A stretch of 64,000 nt of DNA, taken from the NCBI GenBank assembly GCA_014361455.1, contig JACIVP010000003.1, positions 1-64,000 on the forward strand. The letters run 5' to 3'. Positions 41,279-54,738 of this stretch are shown one piece after another; the first letter of the stretch is position 1; each line of letters starts with the position of its first letter. The position numbers and the translations under genes are program-made. The stretch is from Candidatus Methanosuratincola sp. Lineage in GTDB: Archaea > Thermoproteota > Methanomethylicia > Methanomethylicales > Methanomethylicaceae. Below the pieces are notes generated by a model. The model did not search any database. It was not told the DNA's origin and worked only from the letters and a program-made list of their open reading frames with translations.

Positions 41279-41363
41279 GCGGGGGTCGCCAAGTCAGGTC
41301 AAAGGCGCAAGGCTCAGGACCTTGTGGCGAAGGCCTTCGTGGGTTCAAATCCCACTCCCCGCA
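41279..41363 (+). tRNA. tRNA-Leu (anticodon CAG)
   Basis: A class II tRNA of 85 bases. Acceptor stem GCGGGGG pairs with TCCCCGC (one G-T pair) with discriminator A. The anticodon stem CAAGG/CCTTG encloses CTCAGGA, giving anticodon CAG for CUG codons. A long variable arm (TGGCGAAGGCCTTCG) and T arm GTGGG-TTCAAAT-CCCAC follow. CCA is not encoded. The sequence just downstream is T-rich and marks the change to an AT-richer accessory-looking segment. Confidence 0.95.
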
Positions 41364-41931
41364 CTCAAGATTGCCTGTTTGTGTCTGTTTTTTAGCGGTT
41401 TTTCCTAAATAATCCAAAATTATTACCTTTTGTTTTTTAGTTGGCTTTTGATTTAGTAACAAGGTTTAAATTCTCGGTTTTATATGATCAGTATGGAAGC
41501 TGAACCATGGTGCAGTTGATGAACTAGAAACTACCTGCGCTAGGCGACCATAAGTATAACAGGCTTTGGGGTGTCGTGAAGGTAGGATAAGCAAGAGCGC
41601 TGTCTACAACACTCTGTCCGCATGTTTGATGAGGCGGTTATTCCAGTGCACTAAGGGGCCAATTTACGAATTTGAGGATTTAAGGAAAGAGCCGGGATCA
41701 TGCAGACCACTATGCCAGATAATCTCTACGTGAGGCTAGAAGTAGGTAAGATACCATGACGGATGAAAAAACTTAAGGCATGAGAAATAATTTCTGGACA
41801 TGAGGAGCGGAGAGAAGCACGGCAAGGCAAAGACTGCTTGTTCTTCAATGGAAAAAACAGAGATTCTGTCTGAGCATCCAATGCCTGGACCGAAGGTTAT
41901 CAAAAAACACAAAAAAAGAGGGGGCAGGAAA
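41364..41931. other. AT-rich region after tRNA-Leu with a possible regulator relic
   Basis: The first 90 bases are T-rich (a likely terminator zone). At 41587-41733 one frame reads ISKSAVYNTLSACLMRRLFQ then CTKGPIYEFEDLRKEP and stops, which looks like the winged-helix end of a TrmB-type regulator. No start or complete gene is present. A long in-frame extension upstream of panE (from 41800) is not conserved-looking. I see no duplicated tRNA 3' end that would mark an integration site. Confidence 0.35.
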
Positions 41932-47916: not shown

Positions 47917-48591
47917 GTGATTAATATTTCAGAAATCAGGAATCTACCTCTGATAGGGGATCCAGCGCCCGCATTCTCCGCGCAGACCACGCAGGGACCA
48001 ATAAACTTCCCAGCAGACTACAGAGGCAAGTGGGTCGTACTGTTCAGCCACCCGGCCGATTATACGCCCGTATGCACGACGGAGTTCGTTGCGTTCGCGA
48101 AGAGATACGACAAGTTCAGGGAGATGAACGCGGAGCTCATTGGGCTCTCCATCGACCAGGTCTACGCCCACATAAAATGGGAAGAGTGGATAGCTGAGAA
48201 GCTTAAGGTCGAGATCCCGTTCCCCATAATCGCAGACAACACTGGAAAGATAGCAACGCTGTACGGGATGCTACACCCTGAGGCGAAGGGCACACAGGCA
48301 GTCAGGGCAACCTTCATAATAGACCCGGACGGGATAGTCAGGGGGATCCTCTACTACCCGCTCTCGGTAGGAAGGAACATGGATGAGATCCTGCGGTTCC
48401 TCAAGGCGCTCCAGGTCAGCGACAATGAAGGCGTGTCGCTCCCGGCTAACTGGCCCAACAACGAGATCATAGGGGACAAGGCCATAGTTTCCCCTCCGAA
48501 TAACGTGAAGGACGCAAGGGAGATGCCCAAGAAGTACGAGTGCTTCGACTGGTGGTTCTGCTACAGGAAGCTCGGGGATGACAAGAGATGA
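47917..48591 (+). CDS. Peroxiredoxin (archaeal Prx6-like)
   Basis: This thiol peroxidase reduces hydrogen and organic peroxides. The peroxidatic cysteine is in [16 protein letters not shown] (about residue 53). The long C-terminal arm ends in [13 protein letters not shown], giving the two extra cysteines known from archaeal Prx enzymes. The 224-residue length is usual. GTG 47917 is the start; the nearby ATG is out of frame. The stop overlaps the next start (ATGA) of the superoxide reductase gene, so both are made together. Confidence 0.95.
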
Positions 48592-48968
48592 CAGAGAGGA
48601 TGCAGGTATACAAGTGCGAGGTCTGTGGCAACATAGTCATGGTCATGCATGCCGGCCCGGGGCAGCTCGTCTGCTGCGGTAAGCCTATGAAGCTACAGAC
48701 CGAGAAGACTGCAGACATGGGCAAGGAGAAGCATGTCCCAGTCGTTGAGAAGACGGAGAAGGGGTACATGGTCAAGATAGGGTCAGTCCCTCACCCGATG
48801 ATGCCAGAACACTACATAGAGTGGATCGAGGCATTGGCGGGCGATATAGTGATGATAAAGTTCTTGACCCACGAGGACAGCCCAGAGGCGGAGTTCGAAA
48901 CCACCGAGGAAATAAAGAAGGCTAGGGAGTACTGCAACATACATAGCCTATGGGCATACCAGAAGTAG
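48588..48968 (+). CDS. dfx: Desulfoferrodoxin (superoxide reductase)
   Basis: Desulfoferrodoxin reduces superoxide to peroxide in anaerobes, and the peroxiredoxin encoded just upstream can remove the product. The N-terminal desulforedoxin site has YKCEVCGNI and LVCCGKPMK (four cysteines). The catalytic centre ligands are in [20 protein letters not shown] and the terminal [11 protein letters not shown] (Cys and His). It is 126 residues, complete in both iron sites. Confidence 0.95.
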
Positions 48969-48975
48969 GCAGGCG

Positions 48976-49035
48976 CACAGCCTTTTTTCTTCATGATTTC
49001 TTTTTCTTTCTCTTTCCTTTTCTTTTTTTCGCATT
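48976..49035 (+). terminator. Long pyrimidine/T-rich terminator
   Basis: Directly after the desulfoferrodoxin stop there is a run of CTTTTTT, TTTCTTTTTCTTTCTC and further T blocks to about 49030. Archaeal RNA polymerase stops at such oligo-T runs, so this is a likely strong terminator between the oxidative-stress pair and glnA. Confidence 0.65.
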
Positions 49036-49097
49036 ATTGTAAAAATTTTTGTATTACGCACATAAAATTGAACATTTTTTATAAATTATGTGGAAAG

Positions 49098-49107
49098 TTT
49101 TATATAT
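49098..49107 (+). promoter_or_regulatory. TATA box of glnA
   Basis: TTTATATATT preceded by a purine-rich GGAAAG (BRE-like). Transcription should begin near 49130, about 20 bases before the ATG at 49152. Confidence 0.55.
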
Positions 49108-49151
49108 TGACAGAAAGATGTTGTTAGGATTGTTGTTTGATCGGTGGTAGT

Positions 49152-50516
49152 ATGAAGAACTTCAAGGATGCCGTCTGGAAAGAGAAAGTGACCGAAGTAG
49201 TCAACGAGATAAACGAGAATGGCATAAAGTTTGCCAGGCTCCAGTTTACTGACCTGAACGGGGTGCTGAAGAGCCTGGCAGTGAGCACGAAGAACATAGA
49301 GAGCATCTTCGAGAACGGGCAGTCGTTCGACGGCTCTTCTATAACCGGATATAGGCCGATAGAGGAGTCTGACATGGTGCTCTACCCGGATCCGACCACG
49401 TTCGCAATGATCCCGTGGAGGACCAAGGAGAAGTCCTCTTGCAGGCTGATCTGTGATATTTACACCCCGGACAACAAGAGGTTTGAGGGGGATCCCAGGC
49501 ACATCCTCGAGAGGGCAATGGCGAAGTGCAAGGAGGCTGGCTTCAGATTCTTCTGCGCCCCGGAGCTCGAGTTCTTTGTGGTGAAGGAGAACGAAAATTC
49601 ACAGACGCCCACACCAATAGACATGGCAGGGTACTTCGACTTGCACCCCGGAGACCTGACCGACGATTTGAGGAGGGAGATCGCAGACACCGCTGAGATG
49701 TTCGGGATCAACATTGAGATCTCCCATCATGAGGTCGCCCTTGGGCAGAACGAGATAGACTTCAGGTACGACGAGGGGCTGCCCACTGCTGACAGGGCCA
49801 TAACGATGAAGATGGTTACAAAGGTGGTTGCCGCCAAGAACGGATACATAGCTACGTACATGCCCAAACCGTTCTTCGGGGTAAACGGGTCTGGGATGCA
49901 CGTCCACCAAAGCCTCTGGAACCTTGACCTCACGAAGAACATGTTCTACTCTGAAGACCAGAGCTCAAACTACCTGTCGGACATCGCCAGGTACAGCATA
50001 GGCGGGCAACTTAGGCACGGTAGGGAGATGTGCTCGGTTCTTGCCTCGTGGCCGAACTCATACAAGAGGCTGGTTCCTGGATACGAGGCACCTGTCTATG
50101 TTGCATGGGCGTTCAAGAACAGATCCCCTCTGATCAGGGTGCCGAACTTCGGAGGCAGGAAGAACGCAGCAAGGTTCGAGATAAGGTGCCCGGACCCTGC
50201 TGGTAACCCGTACCTCCAGTTCGCGGTCCTGAGCATGGCGATGCTCGATGGAATCAAGAACAAAATAGATCCTGGGCCACCAACCGAGCTCAACGTGTAC
50301 AAGATGAGTTATGAGGAGAGAAAAGCACGGAACATCATTTCCCTCCCAGAGTCGCTTAAGGAGGCGCTCGACGAGACGGAGAGGAGCGAGTTCATGAGAG
50401 AGGTGCTAGGCAAGACTGCCTTCGAGAACTACCTCTCCGTTAAGAGGAAGGAGTGGGATGCCTACAGAATCCAAGTGACCAGCTGGGAAGTCGAACGGTA
50501 CATCCGTAGGCTATGA
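49152..50516 (+). CDS. glnA: Glutamine synthetase
   Basis: GlnA makes glutamine from glutamate, ammonia and ATP. Seen are the beta-grasp N-terminus (FARLQFTDLNGVLKSLAV), QSFDGSSITGYRPIEESDM, the metal-binding ELEFFVV, GSGMHVHQSLW, and the ATP-site KRLVPGYEAPVYVAWAFKNR followed by SPLIRVP and ARFEIRCPDP. The 454-residue length fits the type I family. I do not see a clear adenylylation loop motif. ATG 49152 follows GGTGGT. No PII gene is adjacent. Confidence 0.96.
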   Translation: MKNFKDAVWKEKVTEVVNEINENGIKFARLQFTDLNGVLKSLAVSTKNIESIFENGQSFDGSSITGYRPIEESDMVLYPDPTTFAMIPWRTKEKSSCRLICDIYTPDNKRFEGDPRHILERAMAKCKEAGFRFFCAPELEFFVVKENENSQTPTPIDMAGYFDLHPGDLTDDLRREIADTAEMFGINIEISHHEVALGQNEIDFRYDEGLPTADRAITMKMVTKVVAAKNGYIATYMPKPFFGVNGSGMHVHQSLWNLDLTKNMFYSEDQSSNYLSDIARYSIGGQLRHGREMCSVLASWPNSYKRLVPGYEAPVYVAWAFKNRSPLIRVPNFGGRKNAARFEIRCPDPAGNPYLQFAVLSMAMLDGIKNKIDPGPPTELNVYKMSYEERKARNIISLPESLKEALDETERSEFMREVLGKTAFENYLSVKRKEWDAYRIQVTSWEVERYIRRL

Positions 50517-50597
50517 CACTACTACTTCATCCCCTTTTGTATCCCCCTTTTGGAAACGATAAATACCAACTACACCAAAATTAGATCAGGGATTGCT

Positions 50598-50876
50598 ATG
50601 AAGAGGAGGCTTTTGGACATTCTGGCTTGCCCAATGTGTAGGCACTATCCGTTGGATCTTTTTGCGTTCCGAGAGGGGGATGAGATTGATGAAGGTGCGA
50701 TAGTCTGCAGCAACTGCAAGAGGTGGTACCCGATAATCGAGGCGATACCCCATATGCTACCAGACGAACTCCGCAAGGCGGACGAGGATCTGAGCTTCAT
50801 GGAAAGATGGAAAGAAAAGCTCCCAAAGGAGATTGTTGAGAAAGGGAAGCCCTTCAATTTGGTCATGGAAAAGTAG
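50598..50876 (+). CDS. Trm112-like zinc-binding activator protein
   Basis: The 92-residue protein begins MKRRLLDILACPMCRHYPLD and carries a second pair in IVCSNCKRWYPIIEAIPHML, the Trm112/YcaR pattern (C-x2-C ... C-x2-C-x-R-W-Y-P-I). Trm112 proteins stabilise and activate methyltransferases of tRNA, rRNA and release factors. The HemK2-type and METTL5-type enzymes at 1864 and 4102 are possible partners (inference). ATG 50598 gives the family start. Confidence 0.85.
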   Translation: MKRRLLDILACPMCRHYPLDLFAFREGDEIDEGAIVCSNCKRWYPIIEAIPHMLPDELRKADEDLSFMERWKEKLPKEIVEKGKPFNLVMEK

Positions 50877-50902
50877 GACCAAGAAATTCAAGAGAAAGGG
50901 AG

Positions 50903-51046
50903 TTACTTCCTCTTGTCACACTTCTGGCACTGAAGCTCTCCGTTAGGTAGCATCGTTCCTTCCTCACCAAAGGGTGGGCGGTGGCAGATATAGTATACAC
51001 TACCGGACGGGGTCTTATAGACTTCGAATAGCGAACATTGCGGCAT
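50903..51046 (-). CDS. 47-residue zinc-knuckle protein
   Basis: A short gene with a good ribosome binding site (GGAGGTG before ATG 51046). The product reads MPQCSLFEVYKTPSGSVYYI then CHRPPFGEEGTMLPNGELQC and QKCDKRK. Four cysteines (two separated, then C-x2-C at the end) and a histidine suggest a small zinc site. No family is recognised. Its codon use agrees with a real gene; it lies between the Trm112-like gene (convergent) and the nitrilase gene (divergent). Confidence 0.65.
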   Translation of the reverse strand: MPQCSLFEVYKTPSGSVYYICHRPPFGEEGTMLPNGELQCQKCDKRK

Positions 51047-51171
51047 TAATCTACACCTCCAATTAGGGTGATGGAATAAAACATTTCAACTATATAAGAA
51101 TTCCTTATCTGAGGCGGGGCAGCAATGCTCAAGTGCGTGCGTTACTCTAACCATATCGGAGGGCATGTAAC

Positions 51172-51957
51172 TTGAGGGTCGCATTGATTCAGATGTCGAG
51201 CGGCGGGGAGAAGCGGTCGAATTTGCATAAGGCAGCCCAGATGCTCAGGGAGGCGGCTAGGAGAAAGGCAGATCTTGCAGTGCTCCCCGAGATGTTCAAC
51301 TTCTTGCCCCGGAGGATGACAAGGGAGGAATGCCTGCCAAATGCCGAAGAGGAAGGAGGAGAAACGCTGGGGGTACTGAGTGAGGTCTCGAAAGAGACAG
51401 GCGTTGCAATAGTGGCAGGGAGCATAATTGAAAAAGACGAGGATAAACTGTACAATACCGCCTTTGTGGTGACTGAAAGAGGGATCACCGGGAGATACAG
51501 GAAGAACCATCTCTTTAGCTACTCCAATATAAGGGAGGGCGACGTCTTCACGCCCGGGGGCGCGCCGGCAGTGGTCGAGCTTTGCGGAATGAGGGCTGGC
51601 ATAACGATCTGTTACGATCTGAGGTTCCCTGAGCTTTTCAGGGCAGAGGTGATGCAGGGTGCAGAGGCACTCGTAAATGTAGCAGCATTCCTCGAGGAGA
51701 CGGGGAAGGCACACTGGATGCCCCTTTTGAGGGCGAGAGCAATCGAGAACTTGGCTTATGTGATCGCCGCAAACCAAGCGGGAGTCCAGGAAAACAATTT
51801 CAAGTACTACGGGCACAGCTGCATTATCGATCCATGGGGGAAGGTTGCCAGAAAGGCAGGATTCGGGGAGAAGATCATTTTTGGGAAGGTGGGCCTCAGA
51901 AGGGTCCAGGAAGTCAGGGAGAGACTGCCTGTCTTGAAGAATCACAAGCAATACTAA
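51172..51957 (+). CDS. Carbon-nitrogen hydrolase (nitrilase superfamily)
   Basis: The catalytic E-K-C triad is present: LAVLPEMFNF (Glu), GRYRKNHLF (Lys) and AGITICYDLRFPELFRA (Cys). The RFPE context is that of the Nit1/Nit2-type amidases (omega-amidase or deaminated-glutathione amidase), but the substrate is not provable. The 261 residues are standard. It starts at TTG 51172. Confidence 0.88.
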   Translation: MRVALIQMSSGGEKRSNLHKAAQMLREAARRKADLAVLPEMFNFLPRRMTREECLPNAEEEGGETLGVLSEVSKETGVAIVAGSIIEKDEDKLYNTAFVVTERGITGRYRKNHLFSYSNIREGDVFTPGGAPAVVELCGMRAGITICYDLRFPELFRAEVMQGAEALVNVAAFLEETGKAHWMPLLRARAIENLAYVIAANQAGVQENNFKYYGHSCIIDPWGKVARKAGFGEKIIFGKVGLRRVQEVRERLPVLKNHKQY

Positions 51958-52220
51958 ACACTTTAACAAAGGCTACCATCAGACAAATAACAAAAAAATC
52001 TAATCGTTTCAAATATGCTATCGTACTTGTATTATTGCATTATTAAAATCATGGGATTTGCTACATTTATATAAATTGGGTCAGCAAATATTCGAACAGT
52101 TCAGATCAAAATGGCAAAATGAGAAACGGGAAAGGCGGAATAGTTTTTCCTTCCAAAGCGTACAGATGATGAGTTGGTGAAAAGATGCATTTAAAAATTT
52201 TAAAATAAAAAAAGAAAAAG
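51958..52220. other. AT-rich intergenic region
   Basis: It contains a TATA-like TTTATATAAATTG at about 52068-52080 reading rightwards, but no frame longer than a few codons follows it. A short transcript to the T-poor, A-rich block near 52200 is possible; a TGATGA (about 52167) could be a C box but no matching D box is seen. Confidence 0.3.
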
Positions 52221-52379
52221 TTACTTTTGGGCGGCTCTGAAGAAGGCACCACAGCTCGGGCACTTGAAGAGGCCTATTGTTATTGCTTTCTTCCCCTTGG
52301 GTGCGAGCTTCCAAGTCTTTGTAGGCTTAGCAACCTCGGTTCCACATTTTGGGCATTTTGCCAAATAACTCTCCTCCAT
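52221..52379 (-). CDS. Cren7-like chromatin protein with zinc-ribbon cysteines
   Basis: The 52-residue product reads [52 protein letters not shown]. Its core K-x-W-x-LAPKG-x-K-x-x-x-IGLFK-x-P-x-x-G-x-x-FR matches, without gaps, the DNA-binding core of Cren7 as I remember it, including W23, L25 and F38 at the spacing of Cren7 W26, L28 and F41. Unlike Cren7 it has C9-x2-C12 and C40-x2-C43, placed where Cren7 has its two turn segments, so a zinc ribbon is likely. A nucleoid-binding role is inferred. The start ATG 52379 is the only in-frame choice; its upstream region is AT-rich. Confidence 0.75.
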
Positions 52380-52580
52380 TGAGTCCTTGGTATCTCATGG
52401 TGTGTTTACCATTAAAACAGTTATGGTGATGGTGAACCAATGGTTGATCATCAACATGTACCAATAAGCGCCTTATTGGAGGATGGAAACCTTCGGGATG
52501 CTAAATATTTTTAAGTCTTTATATCAAATATCATAAATTATACTTGTGAAAATTTAAAAAAATATTTAAATTTAGATTCT

Positions 52581-53000
52581 TCAGTCTGCCTCTAGTAGCG
52601 TTGAAAACTTGTAGTGGTGCTCTTCCTCGTCCTTTAGGATGCCTTCAAACAGCCGCTTGGTCACAAAGTCCTTCTCAGACTCAGCGACCTCGATTATATT
52701 CTTATAGAGTATTATTGCGTTCTCCTCGTCCTTCTTGTCGATCTCAAGCATTTCTTTTATGTTCTTGCCGTACTTGATCTCGGCAGGCTTGGTCGTCGGG
52801 GTACCTCCAAAGTAATCGATGCGTTCGGCTATCGCTTCGTAATGTTTCATCTCCTCGATGGCTATCTTCTCCAAGACCTCTGAAACGGTCTCGCTAAACA
52901 TCCCTTTGCACATCACATGTTGCCAGATATACTGGATCGAGACCTGGAGTTCTCTTGCAGCAGCATCGTTCAGCATTTCTAAAAGTTTTTGATTCGCCAT
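52581..53000 (-). CDS. Bacterioferritin-like ferritin (four-helix diiron protein)
   Basis: The 139-residue protein has the diiron ligands of ferritins in order: AARELQVSIQY (Glu), EEMKHYEAIAERIDYFGG (Glu and His), DEENAIILYKN (Glu) and LKDEEEHHYKFSTLL (Glu and His). It should store or detoxify iron. ATG 53000 follows GGAGGTC. It belongs, with the nearby peroxiredoxin and superoxide reductase, to the oxidative-stress equipment. AT-rich sequence at 52500-52580 beyond its stop is a probable terminator. Confidence 0.88.
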   Translation of the reverse strand: MANQKLLEMLNDAAARELQVSIQYIWQHVMCKGMFSETVSEVLEKIAIEEMKHYEAIAERIDYFGGTPTTKPAEIKYGKNIKEMLEIDKKDEENAIILYKNIIEVAESEKDFVTKRLFEGILKDEEEHHYKFSTLLEAD

Positions 53001-53738
53001 AAAAAGACCTCCTTTAAATATAAACAAGAACCTTCAGATAAAATTTTAGGTTTTTTCGCGACCAGATCATTTGCAAGAGTGTGTTGATCATCATGCCGAT
53101 TAGGATCAAACCAAAAAGGAGGTGGGAAGGATAATCAAAGTTGCCTTTTTGCTCAACACTGCAACTAGAGGCGGGACTGCGGACGCGCATATACCCCGCC
53201 AGCCAAGGTGAAGGCGATCGCATGCCAACAGGAAGGGCGCTTGCCCCCAAGAGTGAGTGGCGTATCAGTGGCCTGAGTGAATACCGCCTGACCGTGGCAG
53301 AGGTAGACAGGCAGGGCGATCAAAGTAGCGGCCAGCAGACCGGTTTAGCCAAGCAGAGCGCGGTGGAGATCATGGACGAGGAGGCATACTTCGCCACGAT
53401 TGTGCCTGTAAGTATCCATATGAATGTCGGAGGAACAGAAACGAACAAATGCAGATGGCCCCAACATGTACACTTGCAGCAAGCAACGGATAGCTAGGGT
53501 TATCAGTATCGTCGTTCTTTAATGCCTACTCCGACCTATCTGCCATTAGCACCTTGCGGCAGCATCGGGTAGCACAGATAAGGTGGCAGTTACCAAGTAA
53601 GCCCATCTCCTAGCATTCTCCAAGCGAGTCTTTCGTCCCCCTTAGTAAGAGAACTGAGGCAAGAAGAAGGTGGAGATACGTATCCGTCCTGCCGTTACCG
53701 CTGCAGGCACCATACTGGCGTTTATGTAAAACCGATCT
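53001..53738. other. No intact gene; probable relics
   Basis: The left end serves as promoter of the ferritin gene. A short hydrophobic minus-strand stretch (PSHLLFGLILIGMMINTLLQ, about 53060-53120) and a plus-strand frame (KSEWRISGLSEYRLTVAEVD, then IMDEEAYFATIVPVS, about 53250-53420) look like pieces of former proteins. Neither has a complete reading frame or a family I can name. Confidence 0.35.
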
Positions 53739-54662: not shown

Positions 54663-54738
54663 AGCCCGGTGGTGTAGCGGCCAAGCATGGCGGGCTTTGG
54701 CCCCGCCGACAGGAGTTCGAATCTCCTCCGGGCTACCA
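54663..54738 (+). tRNA. tRNA-Gln (anticodon TTG)
   Basis: Acceptor stem AGCCCGG pairs with CCGGGCT, discriminator A, and CCA is encoded (54736-54738). The anticodon stem GCGGG/CCCGC holds the loop CTTTGGC, so the anticodon is TTG, reading CAA. The T arm AGGAG-TTCGAAT-CTCCT is regular. The downstream kilobase is rich in gene relics. Confidence 0.94.

Follow-up and report, generated by a model that had tools for sequence, protein, structure and literature searches.

A four-cysteine Cren7-family protein of Candidatus Methanosuratincola with a probable ancestral zinc ribbon

A small gene on the minus strand of the window (the whole 64,000-nucleotide stretch of a Candidatus Methanosuratincola contig analyzed here) encodes a Cren7-family protein with four cysteines. 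We consider it probable that this is a stand-alone nucleoid protein retaining the ancestral zinc ribbon of its family, and we infer both zinc and DNA binding from the residues it has kept. One 47-60 residue domain exists today with four cysteines, with three cysteines plus a histidine, with two cysteines, and with none, and these living forms lay out a testable path from a metal-held ribbon to a metal-free barrel. The idea that a zinc ribbon became an SH3-like barrel is supported here but is not new, having been in print since 2018, when Kaur, Iyer, Subramanian and Aravind (PMC5906684) described crenarchaeal and bathyarchaeal Cren7 orthologues that carry between two and four cysteines (for example Ignicoccus hospitalis WP_011998075.1) and argued that Cren7 and Sul7 arose from a zinc ribbon through loss of metal binding. 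What is new is confined to the Methanomethylicia members, the pair of paralogues, and a finer cysteine series, and the main effect is to give the central claim of 2018 a broader base. The literature searched yielded no publications on Cren7 in Methanomethylicia, and no experiments on zinc or DNA binding by any four-cysteine Cren7.

The gene and its flanking signals

The open reading frame picked out in the sequence-only reading, which gave no strand, is present and lies on the minus strand (Table 1). The start is probably TTG 52364, not ATG 52379, making the product 47 residues long: i) GGAGGAG lies six bases 5′ of the TTG and is overlapped by the ATG; ii) ATG stands at the TTG codon in other genera; and iii) in the congener L041, the ATG further 5′ lies out of frame. 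The match of our A1 profile also begins exactly at the TTG codon. The 47-residue product (MAKCPKC...) carries eleven lysines or arginines against one acidic residue. Congeneric orthologues depart from it at 1 residue (dN about 0.009, dS 0.6-1.1, dN/dS near 0.01), synonymous sites having taken roughly one change per site; because dN is tiny relative to dS among congeners, this is a real coding gene rather than a chance open reading frame, and it is under strong purifying selection.

A block consisting of CCATCACCATAACTG and then TTTTAAT, 47-68 bases 5′ of the TTG and kept among six species of the genus, is likely to be the promoter region. The same block, read as CCATCACCATAACTG-TTTTAATGGT, is nearly constant in the six species despite variable flanks, and the ACCAT...ATGGT inside it is a candidate operator. 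The T-rich run after the stop codon is probably a transcription terminator.

Table 1. Positions of the four-cysteine Cren7 gene, its parts and flanking signals, and two tRNA genes in the window
Feature	Position	Strand	Remarks
Four-cysteine Cren7 open reading frame	52221..52379	minus	52 aa from ATG 52379
Likely true coding sequence	52221..52364	minus	47 aa from TTG 52364
GGAGGAG, Shine-Dalgarno-like	52371..52377	minus	
Putative zinc knuckle 1, CPKC, residues 9-12	52344..52355	minus	Aligns with β1/β2 turn of Cren7 (turn position: PMC5906684)
Putative zinc knuckle 2, CPSC, residues 40-43	52251..52262	minus	Aligns with DPET of Cren7
Core of the predicted DNA-binding sheet, residues 21-38	52266..52319	minus	Equivalents of Cren7 K24, W26, L28, P30, K31, F41
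Upstream block, CCATCACCATAACTG then TTTTAAT	52411..52432	minus	TATA-like part 52411-52417; genus-conserved, six-species alignment
T-rich stretch directly 3′ of stop	52190..52220	minus	Putative transcription terminator
tRNA-Leu (CAG)	41279-41364	plus	
tRNA-Gln (TTG)	54663-54738	plus	

Cren7 membership, knuckles, and predicted fold

The window protein scores 45.3 bits (E 8e-12) against the Pfam Cren7 family PF11520, clearing the curated 25-bit cut-off by 20 bits, and the zinc-ribbon models listed all fall below theirs. Solved Cren7 chains in the PDB match it with an E of 2e-8, gapless from about residue 15 to 48, Sulfolobus solfataricus Cren7 is identical at 18/30 positions by BLASTP without gaps, and a profile comparison gives 98.3% probability. 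The gap-free match to the Cren7 core proposed in the sequence-only reading is borne out by these searches, as are the spacing and numbering of W23, L25, and F38, the equivalents of Cren7 W26, L28, and F41. When all non-cysteine residues were permuted with the cysteine positions fixed, 5,000 shuffles reached a maximum of 13.7 bits against a Cren7 profile, compared with 45.2 bits for the actual sequence.

Twelve residues are invariant over 24 relatives (K8, C9, K11, C12, K21, W23, P27, K28, L37, C40, F47, and R48); L25 and C43 are nearly so, C43 being replaced only in the CPNGH form described below. The residues of Cren7 that we take to contact DNA include W26, P30, F41, and R51. Of the whole DNA-contact set, the equivalents K21, W23, L25, P27, K28, F38, K39, and R48 are kept, and Cren7 K48, replaced by A45, is the sole contact residue not retained. 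In Cren7 itself, K24, K31, K42, and K48 contact DNA (PMC8927968), and L28 inserts between base pairs from the minor-groove side, giving the duplex a kink of about 50 degrees (PMC5042384). Since the equivalents of K24, K31, and L28 are retained, we propose that the window protein is most likely a monomeric minor-groove DNA bender with its fold held by one zinc; it would bend DNA and would be abundant.

The window protein has the knuckles of a type 2 zinc ribbon, CPKCG and CPSCG, in the turns of two hairpins. Judging from these conserved ligands, the four cysteines would grip one zinc ion, and the zinc would pin both β-hairpins, where Sulfolobus Cren7 relies on its hydrophobic core alone. The earlier statement that Cren7 has no cysteines at these positions is right for the crystallized Sulfolobus protein but not for the family as a whole. 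Canonical Sulfolobales Cren7 (PDB 2JTM, 3KXT, 3LWH, 6A2I; PF11520) shares with the window protein the gapless core, the W/L/F spacing, the equivalents of K24, K31, and R51, and the predicted fold; it differs in having no cysteines, a longer N-terminal hairpin, and a C-terminal PDDYPI tail.

An AlphaFold model built with 24 sequences as input (mean pLDDT 84.8) agrees with membership in the family: the best twelve matches in the PDB are all Cren7, mostly DNA complexes, with TM up to 0.77 and an rmsd of 1.4-1.6 Å for most, although none is better than E 0.001, as can be expected at 52 residues. The overlay on Cren7-DNA structures suggested in the sequence-only reading accordingly gives a predicted Cren7 fold (TM 0.77, 1.6 Å). 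Neither outcome named there as fatal to the assignment, a missing Cren7 profile match or a split of W23, L25, and F38 between different faces, was found; judged from the overlay only, the three residues appear to share one face. After the twelve Cren7 entries come the zinc-ribbon protein ZPR1 and, further down with weaker scores, RPA12 and NrdR.

Such zinc ribbons among the later fold matches, together with the weak matches to several zinc-ribbon models, are what one would cite if the window protein were instead a common small zinc ribbon from a different family (RNA polymerase subunit, ribosomal, or FmdB-like), similar to Cren7 by convergence. We find this scarcely credible: the zinc-ribbon models listed mostly cover the CPxC motif alone and all lie below their cut-offs, with Cren7 20 bits above its own; the cysteine-keeping shuffles never come near the Cren7 score; and an unbroken sequence series links the window protein to canonical Cren7. 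A nucleoid protein of the Cren7 family remains our reading, although several features count against it: many zinc ribbons of similar size bind RNA or proteins; the matching core spans about 32 residues, with weak alignment of the N-terminal hairpin to canonical Cren7; and the protein lacks the PDDYP tail that crenarchaeal Cren7 has at its C terminus.

Among the relatives of Cren7, the APE_2454.1-type Cren7Znr proteins (PMC5906684) resemble the window protein in their four cysteines and Cren7-like W motif, but extend further at the C terminus, where an acidic residue is conserved; no such extension is found in the window protein, which ends FRAAQK, four residues past FR, and the sequences we assign to Cren7Znr also have a longer central loop. 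Sul7d/Sso7d is, like Cren7 according to the literature, a small basic DNA-bending barrel, but it does not match the window protein in sequence (it is absent from the 25 Pfam families listed and from the matches to PDB chains with E values up to 10) and is restricted to Sulfolobus and near relatives (PMC5906684). The best NCBIfam match, the methanogen Cys-rich peptide TIGR04165, scores 26.6 bits against a cut-off of 60, and was discarded as a possible euryarchaeal Cren7 because with eight relatives it never exceeded 23 bits.

The cysteine series and the direction of change

PF11520 matches occur in 160/398 Thermoproteota genomes drawn, and cysteine types were assigned from an aligned sample of the matching sequences. 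A survey for the four-cysteine form, as the sequence-only reading had proposed, found CPxC + CPxC in Methanomethylicia, Culexarchaeia, Bathyarchaeia, and several unplaced Thermoprotei; CPKC + CPNGH, in which the histidine is likely to be the fourth ligand, is shared by Nezhaarchaeia, MAGs of Desulfurococcales and Sulfolobales, and a family with small genomes (code f38), in contrast to the window protein with its two full CxxC knuckles; most copies in family f30 have a single cysteine remaining per knuckle; and cysteine-free forms occur in family codes f11, f18, f20, f24, f27, f31, f43, and f53. The Cren7 matches read in the Methanomethylicia class are four-cysteine or three-cysteine-plus-histidine, none cysteine-free. 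Four class members (G025, G028, G034, and G038; three of them less than 80% complete) gave no Cren7 even with the sharper A1 profile, and no relatives were found in plasmid records or viral contigs. No genome among those read holds the short four-cysteine and the cysteine-free forms together.

The f30 genomes (such as G142, G173, and G394) have three to five Cren7 copies each, G173 mixing two-cysteine and cysteine-free copies. In Bathyarchaeia (L138, L140, and L239/L242), a four-cysteine Cren7-like gene lies near a Cren7Znr-like gene on the same strand.

In trees of 42-51 columns, where the Cren7Znr outgroup rows have long branches and fail to group together, cysteine-free crenarchaeal Cren7 nests inside the cysteine-bearing forms. 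Without both knuckles, Sulfolobales-type forms still nest within the three-cysteine-plus-histidine forms, and an f30/f18 group branches apart, although joining all of them is not rejected (p-AU 0.57); that separate branch allows that cysteines may have been lost twice. We regard the trees as support, not proof, for a direction from zinc ribbon to cysteine-free SH3-like barrel.

The reverse direction, with a cysteine-free Cren7 as the ancestor and cysteines gained later in Methanomethylicia and Bathyarchaeia, could appeal to the absence of a firm root in single-domain trees of about 45 columns with long-branched, ungrouped Cren7Znr outgroup rows. We nevertheless judge it very improbable: it needs a joint origin of four matching ligands; among the sequences read, cysteine-free forms are confined to some classical-crenarchaea family codes, whereas four-cysteine forms extend over Bathyarchaeia, Methanomethylicia, Culexarchaeia, and unplaced Thermoprotei; and the nesting of cysteine-free inside cysteine-bearing forms persists even without the knuckle columns. 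Cren7 membership, the zinc-ribbon knuckles, and a zinc-ribbon origin of the Cren7 barrel, one of the two directions raised in the sequence-only reading, are all supported. The description there of the window protein as "ancestral or intermediate" holds for the first term, the protein standing at the ancestral-type four-cysteine end, but not for the second, the intermediates being the CPxC + CPNGH and two-cysteine forms of other lineages. The four-cysteine orthologues of PMC5906684 are likewise single small domains with cysteines in the β1/β2 and β4/β5 turns and a proposed zinc binding and zinc-ribbon origin; the window protein differs in its host, Methanomethylicia, which we did not find named there, and in occurring as two copies per genome.

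Paralogues, neighborhood, and possible tasks

The host is a Candidatus Methanosuratincola (Methanomethylicia) whose 94% complete genome (1.52 Mb in 144 contigs) carries two Cren7 genes, each four-cysteine, along with two Alba genes and one 76-residue histone-fold gene (G000; L245, 169-399 minus). In this methane-cycling lineage, zinc-ribbon Cren7 coexists with histone and Alba genes; a relative of the lineage, Methanosuratincola petrocarbonis LWZ-6, has been isolated (PMC12244365). PF00808 matches were seen in 22/22 high-quality genomes searched, whereas Table 1 of PMC6136690 enters Candidatus Verstraetearchaeota as histone-free.

Copy A, in the window, adjoins CN hydrolase and glutamine synthetase genes, joined by a ferritin gene in many species; copy B adjoins an ACT-type gene (assigned by reading the sequence). 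The two sets of neighbors differ and each persists in many genomes of the family, and the duplication is therefore probably as old as the family, with both copies mostly kept.

Kaur et al. propose that some Cren7 and Cren7Znr proteins anchor DNA to the division apparatus (PMC5906684), and the window protein might similarly be a Cren7-derived zinc ribbon with a specialized task in place of bulk chromatin, for example such an anchor or a regulator of a few genes, with the paralogues splitting tasks. Two paralogues with different yet conserved neighbors, the Cren7 domains fused to FtsZ and CdvA-like parts reported by Kaur et al. (PMC5906684), and a histone and two Alba genes already at hand for packing would suit such a task. 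We think it unlikely, given that the protein is a bare 47-residue domain with no partner domain and no tail, that it retains the residues which in Cren7 contact DNA without sequence preference, and that its neighbors (ferritin, CN hydrolase, and glutamine synthetase) are unrelated to division.

Peroxiredoxin, desulfoferrodoxin, glutamine synthetase, Trm112-like zinc ribbon, CN hydrolase, Cren7, and ferritin genes stand in a row at 47917-53027 of the window, a neighborhood of oxygen and iron defense in a likely anaerobe. With the window copy adjoining ferritin and near the peroxiredoxin and desulfoferrodoxin genes, one could speculate that in Methanomethyliaceae both zinc-ribbon Cren7 paralogues act with histone as non-redundant nucleoid proteins sensitive to metal or redox state, and that oxidation-driven zinc release could switch DNA binding of the window copy; we offer this as a long shot.

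Copy B shows changes of its own in two cases. In L110 (= G016:C20:127076-127177), a decaying copy B beside the ACT-type gene has lost the second cysteine of knuckle 1 (CPKYRTEV), and a stop was counted within the match in the genome search; in L050, from a single Methanosuratincola species, copy B contains a duplication in frame, CGAFFRAFFRASSK.
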